Made by a program: the position numbers and the translations under genes. A model generated the notes under the pieces. It was not told the origin of the DNA. It was given only the letters and a program-made list of their open reading frames with translations, and made no database searches. 64,000 nucleotides of DNA from Candidatus Poribacteria bacterium. GTDB lineage: Bacteria; Poribacteria; WGA-4E; WGA-3G. The stretch is taken from positions 1-64,000 of the forward strand of contig VXMD01000033.1 in assembly GCA_009841255.1 (NCBI GenBank), given 5' to 3'. How positions within the stretch are numbered: the stretch's first letter is position 1; the number at the start of each line of letters is the position of its first letter. Shown here piece by piece: positions 12,105 to 32,152 of the stretch.

Positions 12105-12162
12105 AATTTTTTAGAAACAATCTCCAACAAATATTTAGAATTTCATTTGACCAAATGACACA

Positions 12163-12189: not shown

Positions 12190-12205
12190 TTCAAAAATCG
12201 TATTC

Positions 12206-13465: not shown

Positions 13466-13468
13466 CAA

Positions 13469-13495
13469 ACGCGGTGTTTTCGCAAGAAACCGCGT
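13469..13495 (+). other. Intercistronic hairpin
   Basis: ACGCGGT (13469-13475) pairs with ACCGCGT (13489-13495) with further TTTC/GAAA pairing inside. It begins 4 nt after the porin stop, so it may adjust expression of the porin relative to imelysin. No T-run follows, so it is not a clear terminator. Confidence 0.5.
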
Positions 13496-13521
13496 ATATT
13501 AAGAGTAATATGGAGGTTTTT

Positions 13522-14628: not shown

Positions 14629-14703
14629 TATATTTTGTAAAGCGTTTTAGTTCCGAAATACGTAGACACGAAAGGGAAACCATTTCGTTTTTGCAAAGTA
14701 GCA

Positions 14704-14721
14704 GGCACGCGTCGGCGTGCC
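14704..14721. repeat. Hairpin GGCACGC-GTCG-GCGTGCC
   Basis: Perfect 7-bp stem with a 4-nt loop between imelysin and the di-haem gene. Its form suggests a dispersed intergenic hairpin rather than a terminator; no T-run follows. Confidence 0.5.
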
Positions 14722-14737
14722 GTCTCAACTAAAAGAG

Positions 14738-16138
14738 ATGAAACATCTTCAAAGTTCATTCTATTTAATTCTTTTGGCGTTAATCCCGTTGAGTGCTTGT
14801 GATTCCGAGTCACCCGTGGCGGTAGAATCAACACCCGTATTTTCGACCAGCGAACTTTCCGGGGGCGACACAACAATTTTCGATGCGTCAAGCCATGCGT
14901 TCTCAATTCCTGCTCCCAATCTTTCGGCATCAGCATTTGAAAAGCATCTGGAGGGTGATGTTGAATTTGAAGCCGTTTTTGTAACAGCTCCTGCAGTGGT
15001 GAACCCCGGACTCGGACCCATCTATAACAACGTTTCGTGTATCAATTGTCATTCTCGTGACGGTCGCGGGCGACCACCGGATCCTGATGAGGGGCTTGTG
15101 TCCCTACTGTTCAGGCTCAGTCTTCCGAAGGCAGAGGATGCGATAGATGGAAAACCACCGATTCCGGTGCCGGGCTTCGGGACGCAACTCAACAACCGTG
15201 CTATTGTCAAGGCGAGTCCAGAAGGTAAAGTCAAAATTGACTACACTGAGCAGACGCTGACGACGGTAGATGGAACGCGCGTACATCTGCGCTACCCGAA
15301 CTATACTGTCACGGAAACCTATCAGCCACTGCCAGAAAATGTCGAAGTATCTCCACGCGTCGCACCCGTTGTCTTTGGACTGGGTCTGTTGGAAGCGATC
15401 CCTGAAGAAACCATCCTTGCTTATGCAGATGAAGTCGATGTCGATGGAGACGGTATCTCAGGCAAACCGAATTATGTGTGGGATGTTGTTGAGAAGCGTT
15501 ACGCGCTCGGACGTTTCGGATGGAAAGCGAACCAACCGACACTTATCCAGCAGGTCGCGGCGGCGTATCACGACGATATGGGTGTAACGACCTCACTGTT
15601 CTCAACCGAAAACTCGGCAGGGCAATCGCAACTCACTGAACATGGTGTAACGCCAGAAGTTAGAGACGAGATTTTAGAGGTGGTGACGTTCTACGTTCAG
15701 ACGTTGGCGGTCCCAGCGCGACGCAACGTAGATAATCCGCAAGTTAAGCAGGGTGAGCAACTTTTTGCGAAAGCCCAATGCGCCAGTTGTCATGTGCCGA
15801 CATTAAGAACCGGTGTCTTAGCAGGTGTGCCTTCAGTGAGCAACCAAACGATCCATCCGTACACGGATTTGCTGTTGCACGACATGGGACCCGATTTAGC
15901 GGACAATCGTCCCGATTTCCATGCCAGCGGTCGCGAATGGCGGACGCCACCGCTGTGGGGTATCGGTTTAGTGAGAAGGGTTAACGGTCATACCAACTTC
16001 CTCCATGATGGGAGGGCGCGGGACTTAATGGAAGCGATTCTCTGGCACGGTGGGGAAGCGGAAGTATCACGGCAAGCCGTTGAACAGATGTCAAAATCAG
16101 AACGCGATGCGCTCATTGCGTTTTTAGAATCGCTGTAG
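14738..16138 (+). CDS. Di-haem c-type thiol-oxidoreductase-like lipoprotein (DHOR/DUF1111)
   Basis: 466 aa from ATG 14738 (MKHLQSSFYLILL, lipobox LSAC with Cys21); a GTG at 14717 is an alternative. Two CxxCH haem sites: C101-I-N-C104-H105 and C348-A-S-C351-H352. The second is within a MauG/cytochrome c peroxidase-like domain (EQLFAKAQCASCHVPTLRTG, then the conserved RTPPLWGIG). DVDGDGISG (234-242) resembles a Ca-binding loop. Known context: this family is repeatedly found beside imelysins in Fur-regulated operons. Inferred role is periplasmic redox chemistry on iron or its carrier. Confidence 0.92.
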   Translation: MKHLQSSFYLILLALIPLSACDSESPVAVESTPVFSTSELSGGDTTIFDASSHAFSIPAPNLSASAFEKHLEGDVEFEAVFVTAPAVVNPGLGPIYNNVSCINCHSRDGRGRPPDPDEGLVSLLFRLSLPKAEDAIDGKPPIPVPGFGTQLNNRAIVKASPEGKVKIDYTEQTLTTVDGTRVHLRYPNYTVTETYQPLPENVEVSPRVAPVVFGLGLLEAIPEETILAYADEVDVDGDGISGKPNYVWDVVEKRYALGRFGWKANQPTLIQQVAAAYHDDMGVTTSLFSTENSAGQSQLTEHGVTPEVRDEILEVVTFYVQTLAVPARRNVDNPQVKQGEQLFAKAQCASCHVPTLRTGVLAGVPSVSNQTIHPYTDLLLHDMGPDLADNRPDFHASGREWRTPPLWGIGLVRRVNGHTNFLHDGRARDLMEAILWHGGEAEVSRQAVEQMSKSERDALIAFLESL

Positions 16139-16260
16139 AACAGATAAGCTTCATCCTCAACTTTCAACAAAGATTTGAAATCCATTCTAACGTGTGATGC
16201 ACTAATAGGTGCAGGAATAAAAAACCAAAATTCTAACACCTCATCATTAGGAGACACATC

Positions 16261-16728
16261 ATGAATCAAGTAACAAACGACGCAATTATCAAAGAACTGA
16301 CTCGCGCCTATTGGCTTGAGGTAGAGGCAACTATCAACTATCTCGCTATTTCTGTGGATTTGGATGGCATTCGTGCAGAAGAGATTAAGAAATCTCTGGC
16401 AACAGATATCCAAACAGAAATTACACACGCACAGGAACTTGCCGCCCGTATCAAAGAGATCGACGGACGAGTCCCGGGTTCGTTTGCCTTCAAACCCGAA
16501 CAGGCCTCGCTTCAACCCCCAGAAGATTCAACGGACGTTGTGGCAGTGATCCATGGTGTCATCGAAGCCGAAAATTCCGCAATCGAGCAATACAATAAGA
16601 TTATTCGCTTGTGCGATGGGATAGATTACGTCACGCAAGACCTCTGCATCAAACTCCTCGCCGATGAGGAGAAGCACCGTCGGGAGTTCAGAGGCTTTCT
16701 CAAGGAATACGAGAATGGGAGCGAGTAA
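16261..16728 (+). CDS. Ferritin-like diiron protein
   Basis: 155 aa from ATG 16261 with AGGAGACACATC upstream. A four-helix bundle with two diiron half-sites: E20/E22 (WLEVEATINYLA) with E53-I-T-H56, and E102 (VIEAENSAIEQY) with E136-E137-K-H139 (DEEKHRREF). No haem-binding Met is obvious, so it is closer to generic ferritin-like/bacterioferritin-type proteins than to true Bfr. Cytoplasmic. It closes the iron locus; a terminator follows. Inferred role is storage or detoxification of the iron the locus imports. Confidence 0.85.
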   Translation: MNQVTNDAIIKELTRAYWLEVEATINYLAISVDLDGIRAEEIKKSLATDIQTEITHAQELAARIKEIDGRVPGSFAFKPEQASLQPPEDSTDVVAVIHGVIEAENSAIEQYNKIIRLCDGIDYVTQDLCIKLLADEEKHRREFRGFLKEYENGSE

Positions 16729-16787: not shown

Positions 16788-16848
16788 AAGAGCAAGTATT
16801 GAACTCGACCTGCATCATTTTTGAGCAAAACGCCTTACCTGTGTCATC

Positions 16849-19800
16849 TCACACATAATCTGCTGGGCGTCGGAGTGCTATAAATGGGTTCATTGGGTCA
16901 ACATGGTATCGTCGATACCGCTGATTGGCATCTTTCTCAGCAGCGCAGTAAGATGGATGCTCTTTTGTCCATAACGGATGACATTCAATCCAAATCTTCT
17001 TTACAGTCCCCCCTCGTTTGACATAACCTCGCAAATCACCAAAGTTTATAGGTTCGCTATACCCAAGTCGCTGCATAGTAGCAGGTACCGGAGCATTATT
17101 TCCTTGAAGTAGTACACTCCAGGGATTTTTGCTTTGCCCCCAAGGAGAAACAAGGTCAATAATTGCAGCTGAAGAAGTCGCGAGACGAGCCATATCAAGG
17201 GCAAGTCGCCAATCAAGTAGACCGTGGTAAGGGAGATTGTGGAAATCTCGGAGACAGGTATTGCAGGAAGCATCGCACTCATGATTATGGGCCTCTTTCA
17301 TCCATAACTCAGCGAGACCTTCTGGTTCTTCCGATTTGGCTTGATCTAGCAATAATTGGAAGTGCTCTGGTTTGCCGAACCAACGACAGTAACCAGCACC
17401 ATTTTCGAGTTTATCAGATAGGAAAGCTTGTCCTACCGTTAAGTCATTTTCCTTAGTCGCACGAAATCCTCCATCCAGTTCGGTTGTATCAATATCAAGT
17501 ATTGCAGCCGCAGCTGTTTGTAGATAAAAAGCAAGCGAATACCACGCTGCACGTCCTTCAACCTCAGTTGGATTAGCAAAAATACCTTGAAGCCATTCTG
17601 TCATCCCAACCAAGAGAATATCAGTTCTTCTCCGCGAAAGAAGAGCAATACGAGAAGGTTGACCAAAAACAGAAACGTGCTGATTGTTCTGTGGAGAGAC
17701 TGCATAAGCATCTTGCCATTGTCTCCCTCTTATTCTTGCTGCTTGAAAAACAAATCCATTTGATCCGCCATCGTCATTAATTGAGAGAATTTCCTTATTC
17801 TCAAGGATTGAGACATCTGTATTCTTAACATGTTCAGTGTTTTCAGGTTGTACTTCAAAACTAAGAGTTGGACGGGTGGCACGAGGATTCCATTCAAATG
17901 CTCCATCAAAATCGGTAGGTTGTTGATCGGTAAAAAATCCCTTTGGTTCGCGGGCATCAATGGAACGTAACTCGGTTTTACCACAAACATAGCAGTCAAT
18001 TGGTGGTGGTATTTCCACGTTATTGTTTGGTATATCTTCGGTTTTAAGTGGAACAACAGCCTGGCAGTGTTCGCACAATCCGATCCATGCAGGGTTTTCT
18101 TCTTCCAAGGGTGGAGCGAATCCAGGTCGAGAACCAACCTGATCACCTGCCGGATACAATTCAACTACTCCGCATGCAGTATGTACAGCCTTATCTTTCA
18201 CTGTTTCGGATCCAGGTGCAAATTGACTTATTGCAATATCAATGTCTCTATCTACCAGTCCTTTTTCAGGTGGCCATGGATACCCAGAATAAGGCCAGTT
18301 TGTATACAGCAACCGGACACGAGTAGGAAAGCCAAACATTGGAAGTAATCCTGCGTTTGCCAACCTTTCACTCAAAGCGTCTTGTGTAAATTGTGGGTCT
18401 TCGACGATTTTTGTAATCTGATCAAGCAACTCGGTTTTTACAAATTCAGACATTTTATTACAAAAATCTAATGCTATTGATGAATTACCTGACCACCCTG
18501 TCTCAAAGCGCAGTGTATCAAGTATTTTATTGATAATGTGTTCAGTTTCTGGTTTGTCAAGCCAATCTTGGATATATGGTTTAATGTGATGCCACTGTCT
18601 TACGGGACCGAATTGACCATGTACACTTTCCAGAAAACGCTCTTCTACTTCATCATCAATTTCGCTTAAAGTGTCAATAGGGAAGTTAGCCTCCTCAAAA
18701 GCACGTCGCAATATTTCTTTAACAAACACACGACAGAAAATCGGTTCACGCGCCATATCAACATACGGAGTTGGTGGCGGATCTCCCGTCATTTTTTCAG
18801 TCCTATGATAGTAATAGTCGTCGTGGCTTCGTCCTCGACAGAAGGTTATTGCGAAAGAAACACCAGTTCCACGTCGACCCGCTCGTCCAACACGTTGTTG
18901 ATAATTAAAACGTCGTGGTGGCATATTGGACATCATGACAGCTGATAGCGCACCAATATCCACACCTGCCTCCATAGTCGTAGTGACACTAAGAAGGTCA
19001 ATACCGTGGATCTGTTTCTTATCGACTTCATCTCCAAAGAAAATCTCTTGAAATCGTCTTTGGCGTAGTGGACGTTCAGAGGTATCGCTTTGTCCTGTTA
19101 GTTCCTGGCAGTTGAAACGGAATGGATCTCCCGATAGTTGGGAAAGATAGCGGTAGTAGTCGAAAGATGCCTCCGCCGTGCTACCTTTTTCAAGTGAGGT
19201 GCCTATACACGTTGGACATTTTCCACCAGCAGGATGAAGATAGAACGCATTACAGGTCGGACAACGCCAACCCTCTCGTTCATCTCGAGGATCGAAAGGT
19301 GGTTGCATTAGATAGAGTTCTTTCGGGTTGAGACCTACGTAGTATTCACCACCAGCAGCAACCCCAGCTTCGTTAAGCTGGTGTTCAATTGCTGCATAAT
19401 CTACCCCAATTTCACCAAGATAATTCGTTATATACCCCGGTAAAGTTTTTGAAGTGCCTTCATTGAAATAGTCTGCACCGAGATATCTGCGCCGTCTTCC
19501 TAATTCCCTGATTGCAGCATCAGTTGCCTGTATCACCAATGGGGTAGAATTTTCAGATTGATGGTAAGTTACCCATCCCTGTCCAAGTCCTTCCAATGTG
19601 CGGGCAACGTGTGGAAACAGCGCATACATAAGTTCTGATGCCAAATAGTCTTGCATTCTGGTGATGTGATCTCTCACAGCATCATCTGCATGAATCGGTT
19701 GTGGTTCTTCCGCGCTCCAATCAAAACACTCCCACCACGGCACAATTTCTGATTGGCTTCTCCGGAAATTAAGTGCGCAATAATTTGTTCCACCGGGACA

Positions 19801-22572
19801 GATACCTAGTGAAAGCAGGATGTTCCAAACTGCCTGTTGAACTTTTTGGAGTGGAATGCGGTTTGGAAAATCATTGATGATTCTTAAGAGTTCCTTGCGA
19901 GCCTGAGGAATTGCAGTGGGGACTCCATCCAGAAAATTCCCAATTTCCACCGTAAGGTATGGATTCCATTGCGCATAGCGATTTCGCATAGACATATCTT
20001 CAGCACGCATGGGTTTTGAAATTTCTGCATGAAGATCCTTATTCATCTCCATAATTCTATCAAGTGCTGGCTGCGTATCTACTTTCATTGAAAGGGTTGC
20101 CCTTATGAACGCGACAAATTCATCCCGATACGTTTTATGAGCACTAAGCATAGCAACGCGTACCATATCTCGGAAATGATCACGTTCCATTCCACCTGCT
20201 AACTTCGCAGCATCCTGGCGACTGTCTGAGAAGATCACAAGTTTCTGAGCAGATTCTGGTATCTCTCGAGACAATGCGCTCGCAATAACTTGACATGCCT
20301 TCTGAAAACCTGTCCTATGATTCCGTAGCGGTGTTGGAAAACGCTTACGTTTTCTATAATCAGCATCACATCGAGGACATTTATGAGGCATTGCGGGTTC
20401 ATCTGGATTCCTGCCTGCGACGACATGAACCCAGCCTGCCATTTCATTTTCTTTCAGTGGTGATGCATTTTGTTTAAGTTGGCCAGAAAATACATTAAGT
20501 TTTGCTCGGACCCATCGTCTTGTTATCCGTCTACCGTTTTTGGATTTTATTTTACTTTTAATGGTGTATTCTTCATCTTGAGGTACTGTTGTCCATGGAT
20601 GCTCCTCTTTCAGTGGCCAAAAGATCACATATTGTCCAGATATATGCCTCACTGACACACGATCAGGCATATTTTCAAGGTCAGGTTGATCTGATGTGAG
20701 TATCTCCAATTTACCGGATTGTCCACTTCGGAAACCTCCTAAGAATACATCCCCGCAGACTTCGCATACAATGAGGTCAAGTACCCTTCCACCACATTTA
20801 CATGCTAAACGATGAATGGCATGTAAGGCACCAACTGGTATATTTTGTTCTGCTTCGCTTACACGATGCGTGTGAGTTTCATTGCAATTCGGATTTGAAC
20901 ACACCCACAAGTTTTGCAAGTTATGAAAAAAGACATGTCCGCGTACAGGTTGTAGTGATTGATCCGTATCGGGATCTTGGCTCATGCCAAGCGCGAGTAA
21001 CATACCTCGCATTGCTTTCGAGGCAGTTCGTTCTTCTGTTCGAGCACCAGGAAAAAGTTTATCGTCTAATACCGGAACTTTTGCTGGACGGACTACTTTA
21101 TTTGTTGATACTTCGCGGCAGGCATCACGAAGAGCCTGATGAACATTCAGTGATTTCAATGCCTCCAATAGCACAAATCTTGAATCCTTTGATGACGGTT
21201 GTTGTCCCAATGCGATTGCCAAGGTCTGCATCGCTGTTTGATTATCTGACAATCCAGGATCAGGTTGGGACATGGGATCAAACGGATTTGACTGAATACT
21301 ATCAGCAAAATTCTTAAAATTTTGTTGATAGTCGCGCATGTTTATGTAGGTAGTTGCTTCTGGAAGTTCTTGTTCTTCAGATATTCTTTTGAATCGACCA
21401 GCATCACGTCCAAAAAACTCTTGAAGAAACTTATCGGACTTTTCGTCCTCAGTCACACTTGCTGAAGTTGCTAATATTGCAAGTTGATCTGAGTTAGGAT
21501 CTAAGCCAATTCTATCAATGAGCAAGCGTAATATATAGCCTACCTCAGTACCAGGGGTCCCGCGATAGGAATGAAGTTCATCAATAATGAGGAAAAACTT
21601 ACGCGTTGAATCACCTTCAAGCCAGTCCCGGGTTTGCTTAAAAATATTGGATTCAATATCACGCATTAGCATGATATTTAACATGCTATAATTAGTAATG
21701 AGAATATCGGGTGGTGTAACCTGCATATCCCATCGAGACCACATTTCACCTCCATCTATATTCGGGAAATGATAAAGCATCTCTTCATCCAAATCTGGTT
21801 GCTGACGCATTTCTCTGCTTGTTTCTTCCATCTCATGCAATTGGGCATGTAGGCGTTTCACTGCGTTTGAGTTACTCTTTTCACCAGATACAGGTGTCTG
21901 ACCTGTGTACCTTCCGAATAGTATTCTATTTCGACCGTGTCCATCATCTAACCAACGATGCACGTAATCTGAATCAAGAGTACTTCGTAAGCGGCGCATT
22001 TGATCTTCAACAAGCGCATTAAGTGGATAGAGAATTAAACCACGAATAGCATGTAAACCTTCTTGATTTCTACCTGTGTGTCCCCATTGACTCTTCCAAT
22101 CTGGTATTTCACTATTCCACCATTTATGATCTGGTGGTGATTTCGGACAGTCTGGCCACGAACTCAATTCTTTTGATAGTTCTGCGAGAAGAGGTAAGAG
22201 AAAACACTCTGTTTTGCCGGAACCTGTTCCAGTCGTTACAACAATGTCACTTCCACCCAGAACAGATAGTAGACTATTCCACTGATGTCTATAAAGCTTT
22301 CTGTCATCTGGAAACAAAGCTTTGGCAAGATGATATAGGTTCTCGTACCCATTTTGCATTTCCTCCCTTTGACATACATCTAAAAGACTCATACCTGAAG
22401 AAGGATATACCGGGATTGTTTCCAAAATTGGAGGTTGAGAAAGAATCCCTTCGCGGGCTAACAGTTTTTTTCTCTCCTCACTAAGTGATTCGTACCTTAA
22501 TGGAAAAGCACTTTCAATATACCACTGATAAATTTTATTCATTCGTTCATAAGCACCTACAAGATCATGCAT
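16849..22572 (-). CDS. Giant DEAH helicase with DUF1998/MZB-type zinc C-terminus
   Basis: 1907 aa from ATG 22572 (GGGGAG 8 nt upstream; the TTG at 22587 is rejected). Superfamily 2 helicase: Walker A GTGSGKT (115-121), DELH box (331-334), TSAS (motif III), TTTMEAGVDIG (motif V) and QRVGRAGRRGTG (motif VI). Between and after the RecA domains are several cysteine clusters (CSNPNCNETH, CPTCNAF...CPTC, LCEHC...CYVCGK). The C-terminal C-x3-C-x2-CLRDFHN motif, in CDASCNTCLRDFHN, is the DUF1998/MZB hallmark. Helicases of this build and size occur in Druantia (DruE), DISARM (DrmA) and dpd clusters. Last gene of the six-gene cluster; its start is 1 nt after the stop of the 441-aa gene. Likely ATP-driven DNA translocase of a defence system. 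Confidence 0.92.
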   Translation of the reverse strand: MHDLVGAYERMNKIYQWYIESAFPLRYESLSEERKKLLAREGILSQPPILETIPVYPSSGMSLLDVCQREEMQNGYENLYHLAKALFPDDRKLYRHQWNSLLSVLGGSDIVVTTGTGSGKTECFLLPLLAELSKELSSWPDCPKSPPDHKWWNSEIPDWKSQWGHTGRNQEGLHAIRGLILYPLNALVEDQMRRLRSTLDSDYVHRWLDDGHGRNRILFGRYTGQTPVSGEKSNSNAVKRLHAQLHEMEETSREMRQQPDLDEEMLYHFPNIDGGEMWSRWDMQVTPPDILITNYSMLNIMLMRDIESNIFKQTRDWLEGDSTRKFFLIIDELHSYRGTPGTEVGYILRLLIDRIGLDPNSDQLAILATSASVTEDEKSDKFLQEFFGRDAGRFKRISEEQELPEATTYINMRDYQQNFKNFADSIQSNPFDPMSQPDPGLSDNQTAMQTLAIALGQQPSSKDSRFVLLEALKSLNVHQALRDACREVSTNKVVRPAKVPVLDDKLFPGARTEERTASKAMRGMLLALGMSQDPDTDQSLQPVRGHVFFHNLQNLWVCSNPNCNETHTHRVSEAEQNIPVGALHAIHRLACKCGGRVLDLIVCEVCGDVFLGGFRSGQSGKLEILTSDQPDLENMPDRVSVRHISGQYVIFWPLKEEHPWTTVPQDEEYTIKSKIKSKNGRRITRRWVRAKLNVFSGQLKQNASPLKENEMAGWVHVVAGRNPDEPAMPHKCPRCDADYRKRKRFPTPLRNHRTGFQKACQVIASALSREIPESAQKLVIFSDSRQDAAKLAGGMERDHFRDMVRVAMLSAHKTYRDEFVAFIRATLSMKVDTQPALDRIMEMNKDLHAEISKPMRAEDMSMRNRYAQWNPYLTVEIGNFLDGVPTAIPQARKELLRIINDFPNRIPLQKVQQAVWNILLSLGICPGGTNYCALNFRRSQSEIVPWWECFDWSAEEPQPIHADDAVRDHITRMQDYLASELMYALFPHVARTLEGLGQGWVTYHQSENSTPLVIQATDAAIRELGRRRRYLGADYFNEGTSKTLPGYITNYLGEIGVDYAAIEHQLNEAGVAAGGEYYVGLNPKELYLMQPPFDPRDEREGWRCPTCNAFYLHPAGGKCPTCIGTSLEKGSTAEASFDYYRYLSQLSGDPFRFNCQELTGQSDTSERPLRQRRFQEIFFGDEVDKKQIHGIDLLSVTTTMEAGVDIGALSAVMMSNMPPRRFNYQQRVGRAGRRGTGVSFAITFCRGRSHDDYYYHRTEKMTGDPPPTPYVDMAREPIFCRVFVKEILRRAFEEANFPIDTLSEIDDEVEERFLESVHGQFGPVRQWHHIKPYIQDWLDKPETEHIINKILDTLRFETGWSGNSSIALDFCNKMSEFVKTELLDQITKIVEDPQFTQDALSERLANAGLLPMFGFPTRVRLLYTNWPYSGYPWPPEKGLVDRDIDIAISQFAPGSETVKDKAVHTACGVVELYPAGDQVGSRPGFAPPLEEENPAWIGLCEHCQAVVPLKTEDIPNNNVEIPPPIDCYVCGKTELRSIDAREPKGFFTDQQPTDFDGAFEWNPRATRPTLSFEVQPENTEHVKNTDVSILENKEILSINDDGGSNGFVFQAARIRGRQWQDAYAVSPQNNQHVSVFGQPSRIALLSRRRTDILLVGMTEWLQGIFANPTEVEGRAAWYSLAFYLQTAAAAILDIDTTELDGGFRATKENDLTVGQAFLSDKLENGAGYCRWFGKPEHFQLLLDQAKSEEPEGLAELWMKEAHNHECDASCNTCLRDFHNLPYHGLLDWRLALDMARLATSSAAIIDLVSPWGQSKNPWSVLLQGNNAPVPATMQRLGYSEPINFGDLRGYVKRGGTVKKIWIECHPLWTKEHPSYCAAEKDANQRYRRYHVDPMNPFIALRRPADYV

Positions 22573-22573
22573 G

Positions 22574-23899
22574 TTAAAGCTCCCCAATTGTAATGCTTAA
22601 TTTTTCAGCAAGCAGCTGAACCAATTCGTTAGATATGTTTGTATATTTTAGCCATTTATAGTTATTATCTCGGACAGGTAACATACCAGAGGCAAGAACT
22701 AATGCCCGTTCATACAACAAGGGCCAATGTTCCTCAACTGGTATTAGAACTTCATTTGCGCTAGAATCATACCTTGCTCCAAAATCCCGTCCTGCACTAT
22801 CGTATGCAAGAAAACGCAAGCCATACCAGTCTCCACGCAACCACCGTTGATTTGGTTCATCAAAATAAAGAACAATTTGGTAAGGATTATTTTCCGCTTG
22901 CTTTGTTAAGCGATACAGGCCTGAGTCGCCGCAATATCTTCCATTTCTTTCATAAAAATTATCGCATTGTATATATCTTCTACCATTCCAGATCTCAATG
23001 CTATAAGTTGTTGTACTGAGTTGATCTATAGCAGGCAAGATGTCCTTCCAACCCTCTAAGTCAGGAAGCAACTCTGCTAATTGAATCGAAACAGTTCCTG
23101 CATGCCCAATGTTAAAACCGTTGAGCGTGACATCGTTTGTAGAGACCCCCTTCACTTTCACACACGAAGGCCCCTGATGATTCGGCTGCGGAAGAGTTTC
23201 AACTTCGCAATGTTCCTTAAGATGCTCAATTAACTTAGGGGTTTGCTGACCCGTGAGGAAACAAACATCTGGATTTGCAGCGCACTTCACCAAAGCCGTT
23301 GGGCAAATCGACCATTTTTGTCCGTTGTCTGAATTCTCAATATAACCAAGAAGAATCAAACGCCTGAAAATCGATCTGGCATCTTTCACGTCCTCTGCCA
23401 ATTGCAAGATGGTACAAGTCTTTGCAAAAGTCTGCCAAGTGCCTTCTGCATTAGCGGATAACCAGTGAAGTAATCGGTCATACCGTTCCCCAAGCGAAGT
23501 ATCACCCATACTTTCCGTATTGGAAAAAACATCGGACAAATCAAATGGATCACCAAAGTCCTTAGACCACAAAGATATGTAAGCGAGCGTGTTGAGACCG
23601 TGAGTTTCAAAATCTGACCCGCTCACCATTGATTTAATATCATCGTACGAAAAAAACTGTGGGATGATGTTGCCCTTCAAATTCCATAGCTTAAATGCCT
23701 TTTGCACTTGGTTTAGAAGGTTTTCTGCTTTCGGATTTTGCACGGTTAAAAAAATAAAAAATTCCCCGCCTGCTCCTTTTTCAAATTTCACTGAAGGTAT
23801 CGCCCGGGTTAATTCTGCCTTCTGCAGGACTAGACAGATACGCCCGAAAACCTTCATCGGGTTGCCAAATGCTCTAACAGCGAGATATTGCCTTTCCAT
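22574..23899 (-). CDS. Unknown protein of the TGT/helicase cluster (441 aa)
   Basis: Start ATG 23899 with GGGGGAG 4 nt upstream. I do not recognise a family. What can be seen: no signal peptide or membrane segment; N-terminal about 90 residues alpha/beta (YLAVRAFGNPMKVFGRICLV); a middle helical segment (about 150-215: LLHWLSANAEGTWQTFAKT, DARSIFRRLILLGYIE) that reads like a helix-turn-helix or winged helix; and a C-terminal beta-rich half (VTLNGFNIGHAGTVSIQLAELLPDLEGW, RWLRGDWYGLRFLAYD). The tight packing between the 573-aa gene and the helicase (1 nt on each side) argues that it is a subunit or accessory of the same system. Confidence 0.82.
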   Translation of the reverse strand: MERQYLAVRAFGNPMKVFGRICLVLQKAELTRAIPSVKFEKGAGGEFFIFLTVQNPKAENLLNQVQKAFKLWNLKGNIIPQFFSYDDIKSMVSGSDFETHGLNTLAYISLWSKDFGDPFDLSDVFSNTESMGDTSLGERYDRLLHWLSANAEGTWQTFAKTCTILQLAEDVKDARSIFRRLILLGYIENSDNGQKWSICPTALVKCAANPDVCFLTGQQTPKLIEHLKEHCEVETLPQPNHQGPSCVKVKGVSTNDVTLNGFNIGHAGTVSIQLAELLPDLEGWKDILPAIDQLSTTTYSIEIWNGRRYIQCDNFYERNGRYCGDSGLYRLTKQAENNPYQIVLYFDEPNQRWLRGDWYGLRFLAYDSAGRDFGARYDSSANEVLIPVEEHWPLLYERALVLASGMLPVRDNNYKWLKYTNISNELVQLLAEKLSITIGEL

Positions 23900-23900
23900 T

Positions 23901-25622
23901 TCACTCCCCCCCATCACTCTCGGTGGCATCCATACTTATTTCAGCACCACGTAGCGTAAATGACCCTATGTTTACCTCAAAAGACTGTTCTGGCTGATTA
24001 CATTCCAATGAATCCCAAGGTAAGATTCGGAGTATCCTTCGAGTTGCTAGTCTTCCCGAATTGTAAACTTCAAGGAGATAGTCTCCAGTACCAAAAATTG
24101 GACAACTTATCGGTTGGTTTGTATTAACAACATCATTTATAATTGGTTTGTTGAGACGAGAAACATCAATCAACTTTAATTCAACGCTTTCATCAAAAGC
24201 AAAGACTGTAATCTCAGGAGCATATCCTTCCAACCATCCGCCTTGATTTCGCACTCTAAGTCCACCTTTCAAGGAAATCGTTGCAGAGACGTTTGGTTTT
24301 AATTCATCGTAAATATCTTGGTATTGCGGAATTATCCCTTCCCAACTTGCTGAAACAATCATGCATTCCCGATATTCAATCCATTCGTCATCAATCGGAA
24401 TACCTTGACCCCATTCAAGCAGAGCTTCCTGTTTAAAGAACGCCATTTGCTCTGCATATTCTTTTCGGCACAGGAGAATGAACGTTTCACCAAGTCCAGG
24501 ACGCCCCCAATCGGCAAAAACACCTGAGTCTTCATTCTCCGGATCACGAACAAGAACCCAGAAATTTCGTTCTGGTAGAACCAGTTCTTTGATTTGAGAG
24601 TGTCCTTTCACTTCATAAAGCATTCCTCCAGCAGGATCGACGGGCCATAACGGCATAAACCACCCTTGTCGTTCTTCTCGCAATGGATGAATACTACCAT
24701 TATGAACTATTTCCAGCGATCCACCACCAAATTTCATCGGTTGACGCGGGTATAGATAGTATTCAATGTCCCCTATCATACCATCTTCTTCCCTATACAA
24801 ATGTGCAGTCAGGCGGCGTTGACCAATTGATCGAACACTGGGTTCAGTTTCCATCTCTTGATCCCAATCAATTGCAAGGTAAACGTCATAGATAGCATCC
24901 GTAATCACGTCATACTGTCTGAAGTCCGCTTCTTGAAGCAATTCGCTGAGGTGCTTTGCGCCAAAGGGCTGCTTGCGCGTCCAAGTGCCTACGGTATCTC
25001 GGTCCCAAACACGTCCTAATTCTCCCGTCTGCTCTTTTTCACGAAAATGAAGTTCCATAGTTCTTTTGTCACTATCACGAAGCAATGCTTGAGAAAGTGG
25101 ATAATTAATATACCTATTAGGAATAGCATGTCCGCGCTCAGCCGAGGGTAACCAACCGTTTCCAATTAACCATTGGTTCCAAATCTGCCATAAGTTTTCC
25201 TCAATTCCAGTTTGTTGCAAGCCATCAGGACGTCCACCCTCTTCGGGTGGTAAACCAAGAACCTGCCGCAAACGCGTGAAATAATTAATCTGCGAAATAA
25301 TTACATCTTCGGTTTCCTCTCCAATCATATAATGAGCGGCAAGGACCATTGCTGCTAAAAAAGCAACACAACCTGGAATCTGATCGGATTGATAATCAGA
25401 GTCCCGAGGAAGATAGACTATGTTGTTAGTTACACACTTAGACCGAACTGCCTTAGTAAAATCCCCAACCCAATTTACATAATCAGTACCTGATTGTTCA
25501 AATTGAACACCAATCTCCATTAAGGCTTCTTCATCCACACTCAAATAGACGGTTGAACCACTTGGAAGTCCACTAACAAAGTATTCAGCAATTGCCTTAT
25601 TCCATTCGTCATAAGTAGCCAT
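23901..25622 (-). CDS. Unknown protein of the TGT/helicase cluster (573 aa)
   Basis: Start ATG 25622 (GGAG 7 nt upstream; the in-frame ATG 25634 lacks a site). Unrecognised. The N-terminus MATYDEWNKAIAEYFVSGLP is followed by STVYLSVDEEALMEIG and a helical domain to about residue 200; residues about 240-573 are beta-rich with many aromatic residues and include VFADWGRPGLGETFILLC. It has no signal peptide, no visible catalytic motif and no P-loop. It follows the ATPase gene after 46 nt and ends 1 nt before the start of the 441-aa gene. Its position suggests a structural or recognition subunit. Confidence 0.82.
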   Translation of the reverse strand: MATYDEWNKAIAEYFVSGLPSGSTVYLSVDEEALMEIGVQFEQSGTDYVNWVGDFTKAVRSKCVTNNIVYLPRDSDYQSDQIPGCVAFLAAMVLAAHYMIGEETEDVIISQINYFTRLRQVLGLPPEEGGRPDGLQQTGIEENLWQIWNQWLIGNGWLPSAERGHAIPNRYINYPLSQALLRDSDKRTMELHFREKEQTGELGRVWDRDTVGTWTRKQPFGAKHLSELLQEADFRQYDVITDAIYDVYLAIDWDQEMETEPSVRSIGQRRLTAHLYREEDGMIGDIEYYLYPRQPMKFGGGSLEIVHNGSIHPLREERQGWFMPLWPVDPAGGMLYEVKGHSQIKELVLPERNFWVLVRDPENEDSGVFADWGRPGLGETFILLCRKEYAEQMAFFKQEALLEWGQGIPIDDEWIEYRECMIVSASWEGIIPQYQDIYDELKPNVSATISLKGGLRVRNQGGWLEGYAPEITVFAFDESVELKLIDVSRLNKPIINDVVNTNQPISCPIFGTGDYLLEVYNSGRLATRRILRILPWDSLECNQPEQSFEVNIGSFTLRGAEISMDATESDGGE

Positions 25623-25668
25623 ACTAATCTCCATATAGGTCAGAACATAGGAAACTCGCTACCGTCAC

Positions 25669-28600
25669 TTAGGTTTTTCGAGAAACCTGGATATGGATTT
25701 TTCCTTCCTTAAACAGTCGTTTTAATTTCTCAAAATCAGGAGGCTTGTCAGAATTATCGAATAAACCGAAGGTCGCTTCAGTGAGGCCACGTTGCATCAA
25801 CAAAACTTTCGATCCTATACGCTGAACTACTTCAAAACTGAGTGTATCTCGGCTTTTCCGAAGGGCTGTTTCAACTTCCCTTTTCAACTCCTTCCAACTT
25901 CGGCGTTTATTATCTGGATCACGCCATTGAGCACCACTTCTTTTTAATTCTTGGCACTCAGCCACAGCAGTACGAAAACCTTCAAATGCCCACTGATACA
26001 ATTTCTGGAAGGATTCATGAATTGAATCAATCTGCTGACTTTTTTCCTTTGATACGTCAAACACCGGAGGTGCCGTTGACGGTAATAGGAAATTGAATTG
26101 GTCCCTGATTTCTGCTAATTCCTTATTGAAAGTTTGGACATGACTATAAAGGTGACCTTGAACATCGGATTGTACCTTCCGTATTTTTTTTGAGAACTTG
26201 CTTGCCGCTAACAAAGGATCCCATAAATCAGTAGCAAACCACTCTTTGAATTCGGTAACCAACTGGTTTAAAGTTTGTTTCAGTGCTGGTTCTGTTTTGG
26301 ATACTTTAGCACACAACATATCAGTCGAGCGAAGTTGACTATTCAACGCTTTCCATGATATAAGTGCTTTTACCCTTTCTTCAAATTCCTTCACACGCTT
26401 TTGTAGTTTCTGCAAGGAATTGGAAAACGTCTCCTTCTTATCCTTTTGGGCAATAGCCCACTTTACATCCGCAGAATCTGACGAAAAATCAAGTTCTTTA
26501 GTCAACTTTTTAGATTCCTTGCGTAATGCTTCCAGCAGATTTTCTCGGGAGTCCTTAAGTTTAGCTGCTATACCCGTGAGGTGTGTGCTTAAATTTGAGT
26601 CTAGCCACTCCATAGGAATAGCGGCGGCATCTACAGTTCCTATCAAGACTTGAAGAGAATTGATACTATTCTCCAATTCCTTAATCTGTTTATCAATAAG
26701 GGTTTGCAAACGGACTTGCTGCTGGTTGAGATGCTTTTGCAAATCAGTTATGGCCGTGCTTTGGCTGATTGAAGCAGCAGCATCAGTTACTTCAAGGAAG
26801 CAGAGTTCACGGTTCGCTTCATTAATTCTCTCCAACAAGCGGTCGCGCTCAATATCTGCGTTTAGAATGAATCGAATATTCCCGCTAGAATCTCTTGTAA
26901 GGCATTCCCTTGCAACAAGGATTTTGACGATTTCCTCGGTTTCTGTCTTTGTATAACCTAGGTGGCGTAAAAATTCTACAGCAGCATCAAAAGGAAGGAA
27001 TTGCTGACTGGGAAGTCTTTTTAAATAACTTATAAGAGCATGCTCCGCAGGGTGCATTGCCAGACGAAGCGAAAACGATTTGCTGTTGTTTTTTGTCTGA
27101 ACGAATGGGCCCAATTTCTTGATAAAACTGTCACCGGCTGCAGTACTCATTTGACCGAACAGTGTTTCATATATCTCTGCCTTGGGCATAACAATTTCTT
27201 TTCGACCCTGACATTCTGCGGGACTTAATCCAGACTTCAAACCTTCTCGATAGTCAGACAAAACGTCCTCCCATTTTGCCGTTGTTGCCAACGTTTGATA
27301 TTGTGGAAAATGACGACGACATGCTTGGGCAAACAAGGCACGCAATAGTTCTGGACCTCGCAGAGAGATTGGAGGGGTTGTTCCTACATCTACCGTTCCG
27401 TTCATAAGTTCTCTTAGAACAAAATCTATTACAATCTCGGTAAATGCTTTTCCTTTGTCCATCTCAATCTGCTCCTCTGGGGACAAAAGTTTATCGCTAT
27501 TATCAGAGTTATCAATCAAATTTCCTAAAAATGCCTCAAGGTCGTGAAGAGCGGCTAAAATCATTACTGGACGAAATGGTTCGGGTTGAATGTATTTCTC
27601 GTAACGCTGTAGATCCGCAGGAATACGATCTACCAAGGGTTTTAATATAGGTAATCGCATCAAAATGCAACTACCTTCATTTTTATCCAGTAATTCCGAT
27701 CTTGGAACAGTATCAGGATCCGTGCTGGTATCGCACACAAGGGCGATGGAGACATCTACATCTCCGGGCCATGATTCTGGTTCTTTGTCTGTTACGCATA
27801 AGGCAACTTCTCTCTGAGGATAGGCATCATCGAAAGTCCCTCGGAATATATACCAACCTGTCAACATAGCATTTGATTCGTCAGATATCCGCTCCCAGAT
27901 CGGTTTGGTAGGAGTTCCTTTCGGAAAAAGTTTTGGAATCAGAACGCGGAGAATCATATTTGGAGTTTGTGCAGCTAAGGCATCAAAGGATGGTAACCTT
28001 TCCCAACAACGAGATAGGATTTGCTCCCAATTGGTGTGAGTTCGACGAACCTGTTGTAGTAGTTCTAAGGCCAGTCCGTCAGAAAGTTCAACAAGTAACG
28101 GAGCAAATAACTCGGACCTCGCCTTCTTAATTTGCTCTTTGTCTGAGATTTGGTCATGCAGTATTTCTTTAGGACATCCCTGTGGAAAAGCCACCAGGGT
28201 TGTTACCAGTTTCTTACGTCCTTCGTCCTCAAGAATCCATTCGTCTGAGAGGATTTGGGTTAGGATACTTTGTACCGTCGCCCCTTCTCCGAAGTAACGA
28301 AACCTTCCTTGGTGAATATCATCAACGAGATCAGGTATATCGTAACTTGATCTTGTGTCTTGGTAATGAATTGCTGCTCGGGCAAAAATATCAACAACAG
28401 TTCTCGGGCCGTTGGCAAGATCTGGTCTCTCAACAAACTGACCTAAAGATGTAAGAACATTCTCTGACAACGCAACTGATGGAAGGGTTGAAGTCCGTTT
28501 CCTATTGTCACTGCTGAATTTATCCCAAAGCCATTCAGGAAACTCTTTGGTGTAAATATCGGTCAATTGAAGTGCGGGGCCGTTTTCGCGGATCCTGTGA

Positions 28601-29358
28601 AGGATATCAGATGCCCAACGTGCCAGCCTCGCTTCAAGTAGCGAGTCTAAGGCTAAAATAATACCGCAAGGTGAACGCTCTGTGCGCAATCCCCATACAA
28701 ATTCTCGAAATTGGATAATGGCGCGGGCATCAAGGGGACCGAGCAACTGCTGGAGTTCGTCAAGGATTATTACTAAACCTTTAGTATTTTCGGTTGCAAG
28801 TTCTCCAAGTTTTGACAAAAACTCAACGGTTCGATGAGGATGGCTGTCTACTGTAAACTGACCAGCAGAGAATTTATCGTTGTAGATTTTTCGGACTGTC
28901 TGAGGAGGCACAGCGTAACGTTTCGCGTCTGCCTGCACCATAGGTTTTAAACCGTCTGTGAAGACATCTTGAAATAGTTTGTCAACCTGTTTTTTAATTT
29001 GGGGATTCTGAGCACCAGCGAGCGAGGCAATTCCAGCAGCCAGTTCATTAAAATTGGTACATGATAAAGGAGGGATCGCTAAAAACTCGGAATTTCTCGC
29101 GTGTGCCCATAGAGCAATTGCAGATGCAGTTTTACCAAATCCATACGGACCACTTAGGCTACCCCACGTAGTATAACCGCGTTGAACACCTGAAAATACA
29201 TTATCGGCAACATCACTAACTTTTGACGATAACCAAAACTGGTTGGCAAGACTGTTGTAGTGTTCAAGCGTCTGTTTAGGATTTTCCCGTGCTGCGGAGC
29301 CACTAATGGTATCCGCTATAGGTAAAATTTGCAAATAATCTTCGTGTTTCTCTTCCAT
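25669..29358 (-). CDS. P-loop ATPase with long coiled coil (BrxC/PglY- or DpdH-like)
   Basis: 1229 aa from ATG 29358. Walker A is G70-P-Y-G-F-G-K76-T77 in SLSGPYGFGKTASAIALW; Walker B is VIILDELQQ with D200-E201. The N-terminal arrangement (ATPase placed after a short lead with FWLSSKVSDVADNVF) recalls the very large BrxC/PglY (DUF6079) ATPases of BREX and the ATPase of dpd clusters. The middle contains helical and winged-helix-like stretches. Residues about 830-1110 are coiled coil (ITDLQKHLNQQQVRLQTLID, LQKLQKRVKEFEERVKALIS). Cytoplasmic. It begins 8 nt after the winged-helix gene stop. Likely a clamp-like or regulatory ATPase of the system. Confidence 0.88.
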   Translation of the reverse strand: MEEKHEDYLQILPIADTISGSAARENPKQTLEHYNSLANQFWLSSKVSDVADNVFSGVQRGYTTWGSLSGPYGFGKTASAIALWAHARNSEFLAIPPLSCTNFNELAAGIASLAGAQNPQIKKQVDKLFQDVFTDGLKPMVQADAKRYAVPPQTVRKIYNDKFSAGQFTVDSHPHRTVEFLSKLGELATENTKGLVIILDELQQLLGPLDARAIIQFREFVWGLRTERSPCGIILALDSLLEARLARWASDILHRIRENGPALQLTDIYTKEFPEWLWDKFSSDNRKRTSTLPSVALSENVLTSLGQFVERPDLANGPRTVVDIFARAAIHYQDTRSSYDIPDLVDDIHQGRFRYFGEGATVQSILTQILSDEWILEDEGRKKLVTTLVAFPQGCPKEILHDQISDKEQIKKARSELFAPLLVELSDGLALELLQQVRRTHTNWEQILSRCWERLPSFDALAAQTPNMILRVLIPKLFPKGTPTKPIWERISDESNAMLTGWYIFRGTFDDAYPQREVALCVTDKEPESWPGDVDVSIALVCDTSTDPDTVPRSELLDKNEGSCILMRLPILKPLVDRIPADLQRYEKYIQPEPFRPVMILAALHDLEAFLGNLIDNSDNSDKLLSPEEQIEMDKGKAFTEIVIDFVLRELMNGTVDVGTTPPISLRGPELLRALFAQACRRHFPQYQTLATTAKWEDVLSDYREGLKSGLSPAECQGRKEIVMPKAEIYETLFGQMSTAAGDSFIKKLGPFVQTKNNSKSFSLRLAMHPAEHALISYLKRLPSQQFLPFDAAVEFLRHLGYTKTETEEIVKILVARECLTRDSSGNIRFILNADIERDRLLERINEANRELCFLEVTDAAASISQSTAITDLQKHLNQQQVRLQTLIDKQIKELENSINSLQVLIGTVDAAAIPMEWLDSNLSTHLTGIAAKLKDSRENLLEALRKESKKLTKELDFSSDSADVKWAIAQKDKKETFSNSLQKLQKRVKEFEERVKALISWKALNSQLRSTDMLCAKVSKTEPALKQTLNQLVTEFKEWFATDLWDPLLAASKFSKKIRKVQSDVQGHLYSHVQTFNKELAEIRDQFNFLLPSTAPPVFDVSKEKSQQIDSIHESFQKLYQWAFEGFRTAVAECQELKRSGAQWRDPDNKRRSWKELKREVETALRKSRDTLSFEVVQRIGSKVLLMQRGLTEATFGLFDNSDKPPDFEKLKRLFKEGKIHIQVSRKT

Positions 29359-29366
29359 AAATTCTT

Positions 29367-30233
29367 CTACTCACTAACTTCCGAGTTCAGCCCAGATGCT
29401 TCCTTGACTATCCATTCAATAAATGGATCTTCTGAACCATTGAAAACGACACGATTGGGTACCGATGATATGAACAGAAATTCATCGGTATCGCGTGCAA
29501 AATCCTCCAACAAACCAATTAGTCTGTCCCTTTGTATCAGAAAGGACTCTGCAAGTAATTGTATCTTCTCGTCATCAAGAACGATCTCACCTTTTTCAAG
29601 AGAACAGAGCGCAGCTAAATGAAGGCGTATAGCATCTGCCATAGGAATTGACGAATTCTGGCAGAGAATACGTTTTCCTTCTTTTTTGACGAGGGGTAAT
29701 GCTTGACTCTCAAGCCACACTGTCACACCACTCACACTGGCCCTGCTGAAAGAAACTTTTACTTTGCCAAAGTCCGCCTCAGCAACGGAGACTAACCTCA
29801 ACACAATTTCATCCGAATCAACTCCAACAGATCCAGAATACAATATTTGCCGTAATACCTCACGATAACTCCATGAAGGAGAAGCAGTCTTCTTATCTCC
29901 ATCCCAAATCCATTTCCAAGCATAAAGACAGTGGACAGCCGCGCGAAAACCTATTTCATAGCAGCCGAGACCTTTTGCGAGGGCTTTACCAGCTTTGGAA
30001 AGTCCAACTCCCGCTCGCGTTTTCTCAACGATTCCAACTTCCTGCATAGAAGCAAGAAGTTTGGTTAAACTATTACGCTGGGCCAAGGGCGAACCAATCA
30101 CCTTTGAAATAGCATGTAAACCGGAAGGTGAAATTCCATCCGTGGGAACTTCAGATAAAAGTTGAAATGCTGCCCAGCCTAACTCGGGTTTAAAATCATG
30201 CTTCGTATGAAAAACATGAGCAGGTCTTTTCAT
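29367..30233 (-). CDS. Winged-helix-like small protein of the cluster
   Basis: 288 aa from ATG 30233 (AGAGGAT 5 nt upstream). Residues about 15-85 look like a winged helix-turn-helix (LGWAAFQLLSEVPTDGISPS, RNSLTKLLASMQEVGIVEKT, VGLSKAGKALAKGL). The rest is mixed alpha/beta with no catalytic motif I can identify. Size and position before the large ATPase resemble DpdG of the dpd islands, but this rests on layout only. It may recognise DNA or bridge to the ATPase. Confidence 0.8.
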   Translation of the reverse strand: MKRPAHVFHTKHDFKPELGWAAFQLLSEVPTDGISPSGLHAISKVIGSPLAQRNSLTKLLASMQEVGIVEKTRAGVGLSKAGKALAKGLGCYEIGFRAAVHCLYAWKWIWDGDKKTASPSWSYREVLRQILYSGSVGVDSDEIVLRLVSVAEADFGKVKVSFSRASVSGVTVWLESQALPLVKKEGKRILCQNSSIPMADAIRLHLAALCSLEKGEIVLDDEKIQLLAESFLIQRDRLIGLLEDFARDTDEFLFISSVPNRVVFNGSEDPFIEWIVKEASGLNSEVSE

Positions 30234-30474
30234 TTTGATCCTCTATAAACAAAACTCACACAAAGGCTATCGGAACATTGCCTTCACCAGTCGGATCAAG
30301 ATTTGTTTAACGTGAGTTTGATAAAAGCGTCAAGTTGGGTTTCGCTACCGTTATTGACGCAGAAGGGGTCTTGAAAAACGTCAGATCTCTCCACATTCTG
30401 CGATTTTTTCGGTGTATTTACCGCTCTACCCAACCTACAGATTTATTTTCAAACTGGCATTTGTTTAACACAAT
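30234..30474. other. Intergenic insert with a nested inverted-repeat element
   Basis: 241 bp between the winged-helix and GNAT-TGT genes, which otherwise read in the same direction. Positions 30334-30434 form a long imperfect hairpin: GTTGGGT/ACCCAAC (30334-30340, 30428-30434), ACCG/CGGT (30347-30350, 30410-30413) and CGCAGAA/TTCTGCG (30358-30364, 30396-30402). This resembles a miniature palindromic repeat rather than a gene. No clear flanking duplication. Confidence 0.6.
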
Positions 30475-31887
30475 CTAATTGATTTCTTCCATCATGTCAC
30501 AAAAAACGATCGCATTATGCCACATTCGTACGAGACGATTTTCTTGAAGACGTGGAAAATCCATACAAAAAGGACAGGAATGTCCTGTACGTTCGCACTC
30601 CGCGTAAAATTCTTTCGCAGACATGCCTTTGTTAATTGTCAAAGCAGTTGATTTATGACTGACATTCCGCCGCCCAATAAACGGTAGATAAACGTTTCCG
30701 AACCCCGCGGTACGTTGCCAACCAGAACTATCGAAACTGGTTGCTAAATAACCTTTGAACTGATTAATTATATTGGGTGAACTAACACCGAACAGATGAA
30801 GATTTGGTGGAGACACTATTTTTCTATCAAGAAAATCACGAAGCATTAAATCTTTTACAAAAACGAGGCGGCTTTCGGTTTGAGTGGTTAGAAGATTAAT
30901 CTCTGCATTCACACCGGTGGTATCAAAACTACCAAAGCCAATATTTTTCAAACCACTGTTCATATATACGTCAAAACAGTATTTGAGGTGTTCCGGCGTA
31001 TGCCCTTGTAGAACTCCAAGAGCTTTACTTTGCAAGTCGGTGGGAAGTCTTTTCAGAAATCTGACACTTTCAGCAGCGGTTACATGTACCCTTTCTTCTA
31101 CTTCCTCCGATGTCTGCCTTGATGTTGGCACAAAGTCAGGGAGTACATACGTTTGAGCCCATTTGTGTTTAAGATAAAAATTAAGAAGTCGAGAAAACAA
31201 CTCGTCGTATGAAATCTTGCCTTGCTGGACGAAGAATCCGCCGGAATCAAAGACTACTTCAATACCCCAATTCTCATGCATATATCGGACATAATCAAAA
31301 GATCTACGTCCAATAAAAAGCGGTGTAATGATACACTTGTCAAAAGGTTTTCGATCCGGTCCCTCATTTTCCCAAAGCTGAATTAATTGTTTGAGATCAG
31401 CAGAGACCGATGTTAATGATGCCACAAATGTGAGCTTTCGATTCGGTAAAATCGGAAGTTCCCACTCATATAGCGGGCGACTTCTACCACGACGACTGCG
31501 ACGCGTTGACCGAATAAAACCGACTGCTTCATAAAAATGGTTTGCTGGTAATTCCACGGGACATGATAACCGAAGGCATCGTGAAGACACACGTTGACAA
31601 TCGGCAATCAATGCTTTGATTAGTTGATGGCCGATTCCCTTGCTGCGGACATCAGGAATTATTGCGATCTCGTAAAGCGTTGTCCGATTGTCTCGCCTAT
31701 GATGATAACGCACGAAGCCCACAACCTGATCTTCTTTTTTTGCGATCAGGAGTTCACCTTTGTCAAGACTATCTACATAAGCCTGACGAGCGTGAAAGCC
31801 GAGTTCAGCACGATGTTCATCGGCAATATGTTTAACAATATCAACATCGGATAGGTCTTTAGCTTTGGAAATAGCGATTGAAGACAT
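30475..31887 (-). CDS. GNAT - tRNA-guanine-transglycosylase-like (DpdA-like) fusion
   Basis: 470 aa from ATG 31887; the ATG at 31917 lies between the -35 and -10 hexamers and is rejected. Residues 1-145 are a GNAT acetyltransferase (P-loop DVRSKGIGHQLI at 79-90, then FYEAVGF). Residues about 150-470 read as a TGT-fold base-exchange enzyme: D214-S-G-G-F, GVLQGH (291-296), HLFGV (364-368), D386 in SFDSSGW as candidate nucleophile, and a zinc-type set C431, C438, C441, H457. TGTs swap guanine for a 7-deazaguanine; DpdA does so in DNA. Having a GNAT on the N-terminus is unusual. No preQ0 biosynthesis genes are in the window. An archaeal-TGT-like RNA enzyme remains possible. Confidence 0.85.
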   Translation of the reverse strand: MSSIAISKAKDLSDVDIVKHIADEHRAELGFHARQAYVDSLDKGELLIAKKEDQVVGFVRYHHRRDNRTTLYEIAIIPDVRSKGIGHQLIKALIADCQRVSSRCLRLSCPVELPANHFYEAVGFIRSTRRSRRGRSRPLYEWELPILPNRKLTFVASLTSVSADLKQLIQLWENEGPDRKPFDKCIITPLFIGRRSFDYVRYMHENWGIEVVFDSGGFFVQQGKISYDELFSRLLNFYLKHKWAQTYVLPDFVPTSRQTSEEVEERVHVTAAESVRFLKRLPTDLQSKALGVLQGHTPEHLKYCFDVYMNSGLKNIGFGSFDTTGVNAEINLLTTQTESRLVFVKDLMLRDFLDRKIVSPPNLHLFGVSSPNIINQFKGYLATSFDSSGWQRTAGFGNVYLPFIGRRNVSHKSTALTINKGMSAKEFYAECERTGHSCPFCMDFPRLQENRLVRMWHNAIVFCDMMEEIN

Positions 31888-31899
31888 AACGTGTATTTT

Positions 31900-31928
31900 A
31901 TTATACAAAGCAGACATTAATTAGTCAA
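31900..31928 (-). promoter_or_regulatory. Strong sigma70 promoter of the GNAT-TGT cluster
   Basis: On the minus strand: -35 TTGACT (31928-31923), 17-bp spacer, -10 TATAAT (31905-31900). The start site would be near 31893, only about 6 nt before ATG 31887, so the mRNA is expected to be near-leaderless; no Shine-Dalgarno is visible. Confidence 0.75.
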
Positions 31929-32000
31929 GGGCTTCAAAATTTGCACAGAGGCATTCAGTTTCAAGAAATTATCGGGTTTTGCACCTTATTTTAACGATCC

Positions 32001-32022
32001 GGTGCGATTAGGAAATCGCACC
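32001..32022. repeat. Hairpin repeat GGTGCGATT-AGGA-AATCGCACC
   Basis: Perfect 9-bp stem with a 4-nt loop in the spacer upstream of the cluster promoter. A dispersed palindromic repeat of a REP-like kind is likely; only one copy of this version is in the window. Confidence 0.6.
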
Positions 32023-32152
32023 TACCAGCCCAAGGGCAAAGTCATTCTATAAACATGCCGTCCCTACGGGCCTAAAGACCGGAGATTCTCCTTACATTTC
32101 TTATTCTATACTACTTAGAGTAGAGGAACTGACGATTAAGATGGTATATCAG

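Follow-up and report, generated by a model that had tools for sequence, protein, structure and literature searches.

A mobile Poribacterial island joins a GNAT-transglycosylase module related to BREX-related capture with the DruF, DruL and DruE proteins of Druantia type IV

Results

A six-gene island in the window (the whole 64-kb stretch of Poribacterial DNA analysed here) joins the modification/sensor half of BRC (BREX-related capture) to the effector of Druantia type IV, an identification of parts that we hold with high confidence. With less assurance, we favor a restriction-modification-like defense in which 7-deazaguanine would mark self DNA and the BrxC-like/Druantia complex would attack unmarked DNA.

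A six-gene mobile island

The six consecutive minus-strand ORFs spanned 16849-31917 and encoded proteins of 480, 288, 1229, 577, 451, and 1912 aa. Internal starts conserved in relatives (MSSIAIS at 31887, MATYDEW, MERQYL, and MHDLVG) yielded products of 470/573/441/1907 aa and spacings of 1 nt, in agreement with an earlier reading made from the sequence only. The 288-aa gene and the ATPase gene were 8 nt apart, while a noncoding gap of 241 nt (30234-30474) lay between the transglycosylase (TGT) gene and the 288-aa gene. A repeat had been claimed in this gap, and a repeat scan found no second copy within the window. A strong promoter had also been proposed: one 11/12 sigma-70-like match was present at 31928-31900, but its strength was not sustained, as 1.2 looser matches would turn up in such a scan by chance. 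The six-gene cluster itself, as first described, is far beyond chance, since other phyla also contain these six genes.

In the sister genome G066 (L103), the flanking genes were direct neighbors: their aligned flanks were separated by 6 nt, compared to 15.36 kb in the window. The sequence missing from G066 was exactly window 16790-32152, which defines the extent of the island. In two further genomes (G081 and G065), the island was found one gene away, between a permease gene and a 102-aa gene. The GC content of the island was 43%, compared to 48% for the remaining window. The cluster is one mobile unit, present or absent as a whole. Elsewhere in the window, porin-like, imelysin, di-haem oxidoreductase, and ferritin-like genes to the left of the island (12155-16728) formed an apparent iron-related operon, and a 2267-aa protein of bacterial Ig-like domains (55344-62147) is probably a surface protein.

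Druantia-like and BRC-like components

All positions given for the six genes are on the minus strand. The 1912-aa YprA-family SF2 helicase (16849-22587) was identified as DruE by PADLOC models (DruE4, 1568 bits, E=0; DruE2, 1502 bits), confirming the Druantia-type DUF1998 helicase of the sequence-only reading; it carried a DUF1998-type CDASCNTC cluster and several CxxC motifs. The two subunits that could not be placed at that time were found to be DruF-like and DruL-like: the 577-aa protein (23901-25634; 573 aa from MATYDEW) matched PADLOC models DruF2 (8e-23) and DruF4 (4e-19) in its N-terminal 200 residues, and the 451-aa protein (22574-23929; 441 aa from MERQYL) matched DruL4 (5.5e-18) across residues 151-445. 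The N-terminal end of the long DruF2 models matched the 577-aa protein and the C-terminal end matched the 451-aa protein; DruF and DruL therefore look like the parts of one long DruF. A structure model of the DruF-like protein (pLDDT 72, moderate) gave no significant match in the PDB. DruE, DruF, and DruL, the three proteins that define Druantia type IV, were thus all detected, with DruM and DruG absent, and no nuclease was recognized in the Poribacterial six-gene version. A second, ordinary Druantia-like locus in the same genome (G000:C13, L143 522-10981) consisted of DruF, a coiled-coil gene, a DruL-like gene, and DruE, and was neighbored by a PLD/SNF2-like 1112-aa gene and a gene with an NPPY motif.

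The 1229-aa P-loop ATPase (25669-29358), with a long coiled-coil C-terminal part, contained a Walker A motif (GPYGFGKT) at residue 70 and a Walker B motif (ILDEL) at residue 198. Its Pfam matches were weak and of AAA and coiled-coil type, and DUF6079 was not matched directly. BRC-like ATPases were among its homologs (E to 1e-45), and the homolog from Haloplanus passed PF10923 (BrxC/D), so that the BREX-like ATPase suggested earlier was borne out. The 288-aa protein (29367-30233) was homologous to the protein in the same position of BRC cassettes; it had no Pfam match, and DUF4007 was matched by none of the family members scanned. The BRC component in this position is named DUF4007/BrxA-like (PMC12839542). 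By homology, the GNAT-TGT, the 288-aa protein, and the ATPase are assigned to the BRC module.

Distribution and phylogeny of the two modules

Eighty-five Poribacteria genomes were surveyed. The GNAT-TGT and the ATPase co-occurred in the same 12 genomes, and one further genome each showed a weak match alone. Four of the 12 carried the six genes in the order of the window. The other eight had the GNAT-TGT, the small protein, an ATPase of ~1320 aa, and an AAA protein of 182 aa. Some of these contigs were too short to show what comes next; in the loci that extended far enough, genes resembling PglZ and HerA came after the cassette genes just named. The PglZ-like gene was present in none of the four hybrid-bearing genomes. 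This second cassette was also detected in Latescibacteria (L068), in Promineifilum (L063), and on a Haloplanus plasmid (L080), with the GNAT as a separate gene in the latter two. The BRC-like cassettes gave Pfam matches to HerA (in L068 and L080), PglZ (weak), and BrxC/D, and the second cassette matches BRC as described in the text of PMC12839542. Just upstream of the cassettes at L068 (7865-9934) and L063 (2398-4974), we observed a gene with RNA polymerase alpha-CTD repeats, sigma-70 region 4, and a PglW-like match (1.3e-11); this gene may be an additional component of BRC.

Outside Poribacteria, genomes of 85,000 species and viral contigs were scanned. The hybrid with all six genes was found in eight related loci: the four Poribacteria, an Acidobacterium (GNAT-TGT 65% identical to that of the window), Isosphaera (55%), a proteobacterium (52%), and an IMG/VR contig (56%), the last four all having DruF, DruL, and DruE. 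Conservation of the six-gene order, a check proposed with the sequence-only reading, was therefore seen in Poribacteria, and in other phyla the gene set was kept with the order sometimes changed. The proteobacterium showed the order DruF-DruL-DruE-TGT-W-ATPase (W, 288-aa homolog), and in the Acidobacterium DruL was displaced downstream on the opposite strand. A helicase of 657-671 aa resembling NERD-UvrD proteins accompanied the Acidobacterium, Isosphaera, and IMG/VR loci; a VIEVKD motif, which we take to be typical of PD-(D/E)xK nucleases, was read by eye in the Acidobacterium copy. The ninth hybrid locus, on a conjugative plasmid of Oscillatoria nigro-viridis PCC 7112, had a divergent front module, and its DruF-DruL-DruE operon was convergent to ATPase-W-GNAT-TGT with two genes between the operons.

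Related Druantia-like loci carried other modifiers or none. On a Nostoc plasmid, a C5-methylase preceded DruF-DruL-DruE, and the viral contig L090 (5180-11713) contained a C5-cytosine methylase, an HNH gene, Vsr, the same NERD-like helicase, and then DruF, a methylase-bearing counterpart of the hybrid system. A C5-methylase in the modifier position of related DruF/DruE loci supports the view that the TGT is a modifier that can be swapped. Another eight DruF loci of Poribacteria, including one in the genome of the window, were ordinary Druantia-like loci without TGT. Calothrix had a DruE of the hybrid DruE clade and no TGT on that replicon, so DruF-DruL-DruE may work without TGT.

In phylogenetic trees, the eight hybrid TGTs, all accompanied by DruF/L/E, formed one clade (100/100), as did seven hybrid ATPases (100/100). 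The TGT and ATPase of Oscillatoria fell outside these clades, while its DruE grouped with that of Calothrix within the hybrid DruE clade. The TGT and ATPase trees rejected a joint group of Oscillatoria and the proteobacterium (p about 1e-7), which the DruE tree favored. The reverse DruE test was not significant (p 0.08), so that the trees hint at an exchange of modules, or an independent origin of the Oscillatoria pairing.

The discordance of the module trees for Oscillatoria, the two intervening genes that keep its convergent operons apart, and the existence of TGT-free loci, both of Druantia IV and of the ordinary Druantia-like kind, are all consistent with two independent neighbors, that is, a decayed BRC-like modification cassette beside a complete Druantia type IV in a defense island. 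We consider this unlikely, since the six genes are tightly spaced in Poribacteria and stay together in three other phyla even after rearrangement, the island is present or absent as one unit, the PglZ-like gene of BRC is absent from the four hybrid Poribacteria, and the 100/100 clade of eight hybrid TGTs always comes with DruF/L/E.

Predicted substrate of the GNAT-TGT

The first gene (30475-31917) encoded a 480-aa protein (470 aa if translation begins at 31887, as is likely) with an N-terminal acetyltransferase (Pfam GNAT, 2.7e-14) and a C-terminal transglycosylase. Both halves of the fusion, first described as a DpdA-like TGT with a GNAT, were real by Pfam and structure matches. Alignment to E. 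coli Tgt showed that D396, D224, D261, Q304, and the Zn ligands H446/C448/C451/H467 were kept; from knowledge of Tgt, we take D396 to be the nucleophile, D224 the second catalytic aspartate, and D261 and Q304 residues that contact the base, with the four ligands forming the zinc site. Many BRC relatives had H in place of Q304.

A tRNA-modifying role, for example on infection, would have the system act on translation instead of marking DNA. The confident AlphaFold model (pLDDT 90) matched GNATs, tRNA TGTs, and DpdA (7ui4); the fold, common to tRNA enzymes, is therefore indecisive alone. Some relatives of the window TGT also matched the Pfam model of tRNA TGTs, and the window protein missed the curated DpdA cut-off by a wide margin (29-30 bits compared to 200). 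When the PDB was searched with a profile of the whole GNAT-TGT protein, only GNATs were among the matches listed. However, the TGT-domain profile searched against solved structures gave DpdA 7ui4 (E=0.0014) as the sole match below E 0.01, and the window TGT domain matched the DpdA family model at 1.7e-7 and no tRNA-TGT model. The nucleophile motif FDSSGW (DSSxW) was nearer to CDSSSW of phage 9g DpdA than to FDCVMPTR of E. coli Tgt, and tRNA TGTs were split from the window TGT family at 100/100 support. An ordinary tRNA-type TGT, which together with a lack of co-occurrence of the six genes would have overturned the sequence-only reading, was not what emerged; the enzyme came out closest to the DNA enzyme DpdA. 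A canonical Tgt is already present in the host, and the partners of the fusion are DNA helicases and BREX-like ATPases, which makes the tRNA role improbable. From these comparisons, the GNAT-TGT probably acts on DNA, and 7-deazaguanine marking of DNA is likely. The GNAT could modify a protein instead of the base. No full-length relative was present in the phage records searched.

No local preQ0 genes and no match to DpdB or DpdC were found in the island, as had been read from the sequence. The host genome has QueC, a tandem QueD-family gene, and QueF in addition to Tgt; preQ0 and preQ1 should therefore be available without local genes. The TGT family is genetically linked to preQ0 genes: QueC, QueE, and QueD adjoined the TGT-bearing BRC-like cassette of Haloplanus, and QueD was located 37 nt upstream of the GNAT-TGT in the Acidobacterium.

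Several other TGT and GNAT genes were noted. In the genome of the window, a BrxC/D-like AAA ATPase (384 aa, PF10923 5e-10) directly preceded a second DpdA-like TGT (397 aa) at G000:C74 (L052 8121-11899), with a 305-aa gene upstream, possibly a further TGT and BrxC-like system. A third TGT-like protein of about 650 aa (PF01702, 65 bits) was encoded at G000:C32:250750-251619. In a prophage-like region of G028 (L047 13267-14415), a DpdA-like TGT (382 aa) had a PolC-like polymerase gene and methylase-like genes as its neighbors. Proteins of 670-710 aa at L048 9614-12129, L049 752-3372, and L051 10670-13248 had a GNAT at the N terminus that shared 20-29% identity with the window GNAT, and adjoined a small gene resembling, by eye, an ASCH-domain protein.

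Discussion

The gene content of the island, its conservation, its presence or absence as one unit, the homologies, the intact catalytic residues, and the linkage to preQ0 genes were observed. We infer from them a DNA substrate, the chemistry of the mark, its role in telling self from nonself, the order of events, and the destruction of DNA. On the proposed mechanism, the island would be a mobile antiviral system of two modules. The first, common to BRC, would comprise the GNAT-TGT, the DNA-binding-type protein in the BrxA position, and the BrxC-like ATPase; it would swap guanines of host DNA for 7-deazaguanine, using preQ0 or preQ1 from the queuosine pathway of the host, and the GNAT would probably alter the inserted base further. 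The ATPase would read the mark. The second module would be DruF-DruL-DruE of Druantia type IV: on meeting incoming DNA without the mark, the ATPase would license DruE to load and then to unwind or block, and in most loci outside Poribacteria the NERD-like nuclease-helicase would be added. The homologies, the TGT residues, and the preQ0-gene linkage broadly support what was proposed earlier, a distinct system that works by 7-deazapurine modification and restriction.

The modifier belongs to the self side both in Dpd and in those Druantia systems that carry a methylase. Given that C5-methylases sit in the same place as the TGT, it is very unlikely that the TGT puts its base into invading DNA as damage or a flag for the helicase without protecting host DNA, even if this would need no separate host-protection gene and the sequence gives no order of action.

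To our knowledge, how Druantia distinguishes self from foreign DNA is not known. The definition of Druantia type IV has no modification enzyme, and under the marking mechanism the cluster would offer a 7-deazaguanine mark and a BREX-like sensor for one branch. The island also shows that the BRC module of GNAT-TGT and ATPase can be transferred from one effector to another. More speculatively, and with some doubt, the product may be a base new to cellular DNA: the TGT would insert 7-deazaguanine, the GNAT would acylate it (for example, at the preQ1 amine), and the BrxC-like ATPase would read the mark and hold or release the helicase. If this is true, the GNAT-TGT/ATPase module of BRC would be a portable mark-and-sense module that couples to unrelated effectors, either HerA-PglZ or DruF-L-E. 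As a cultured cyanobacterium carries a full copy on one of its plasmids, the proposed marking is open to a direct test.

Comparison with known systems

As far as our literature search reached, the combination of a GNAT-TGT with a Druantia helicase, present in several phyla, is undescribed. The search found neither Druantia combined with DpdA nor Druantia, BrxC, and DruE together, and only the PADLOC paper (PMC8565338) named both Druantia and DruF.

The island shares a DpdA-like TGT and a YprA-family helicase with Dpd, but the TGT is remote from DpdA (30 of 200 bits), the helicase is DruE rather than DpdJ, and DpdB/DpdC and local preQ0 genes are lacking. Membership in Dpd was rejected, as no protein reached the family cut-off (DpdA, 29-30 bits compared to 200; DpdJ, 46.8 compared to 800), and the suggestion of a Dpd-type variant was abandoned on the same grounds. 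BRIGADE (bioRxiv 2025, PMC12458937) also joins 7-deazaguanine chemistry to a YprA helicase of the Druantia branch. It is found in halophilic archaea only, usually with two YprA helicases and with PLD or PD-(D/E)xK nucleases, and its paper names none of DpdA, TGT, GNAT, DruF, and DUF4007 (PMC12458937). Druantia type II/type IV CoCoNuT shares the DruE family and DruF, the long DruF2 covering the 577-aa and 451-aa proteins, but has the cytosine methylase DruM in place of the TGT and is defined without the BrxC-like ATPase.

BRC (NAR, January 2026) comprises PglZ, a BrxC-like DUF6079 protein, a STAND NTPase, DUF4007, HerA, GNAT, and TGT; the GNAT is sometimes fused to the TGT, HerA is universal, and Druantia is unmentioned in the paper (PMC12839542). 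The GNAT and TGT, the BrxC-like ATPase, and the small DNA-binding-type protein of the island are homologous to BRC gene by gene, whereas HerA, PglZ, and the STAND NTPase are replaced by DruF/L/E; no HerA was found among the six island proteins in PADLOC and Pfam profile searches. Druantia type IV, defined by DruE, DruF, and DruL (PADLOC 2021, PMC8565338), has all three proteins in common with the island, but its definition does not include the GNAT-TGT, the BrxA-position protein, and the BrxC-like ATPase, which the island joins to them.
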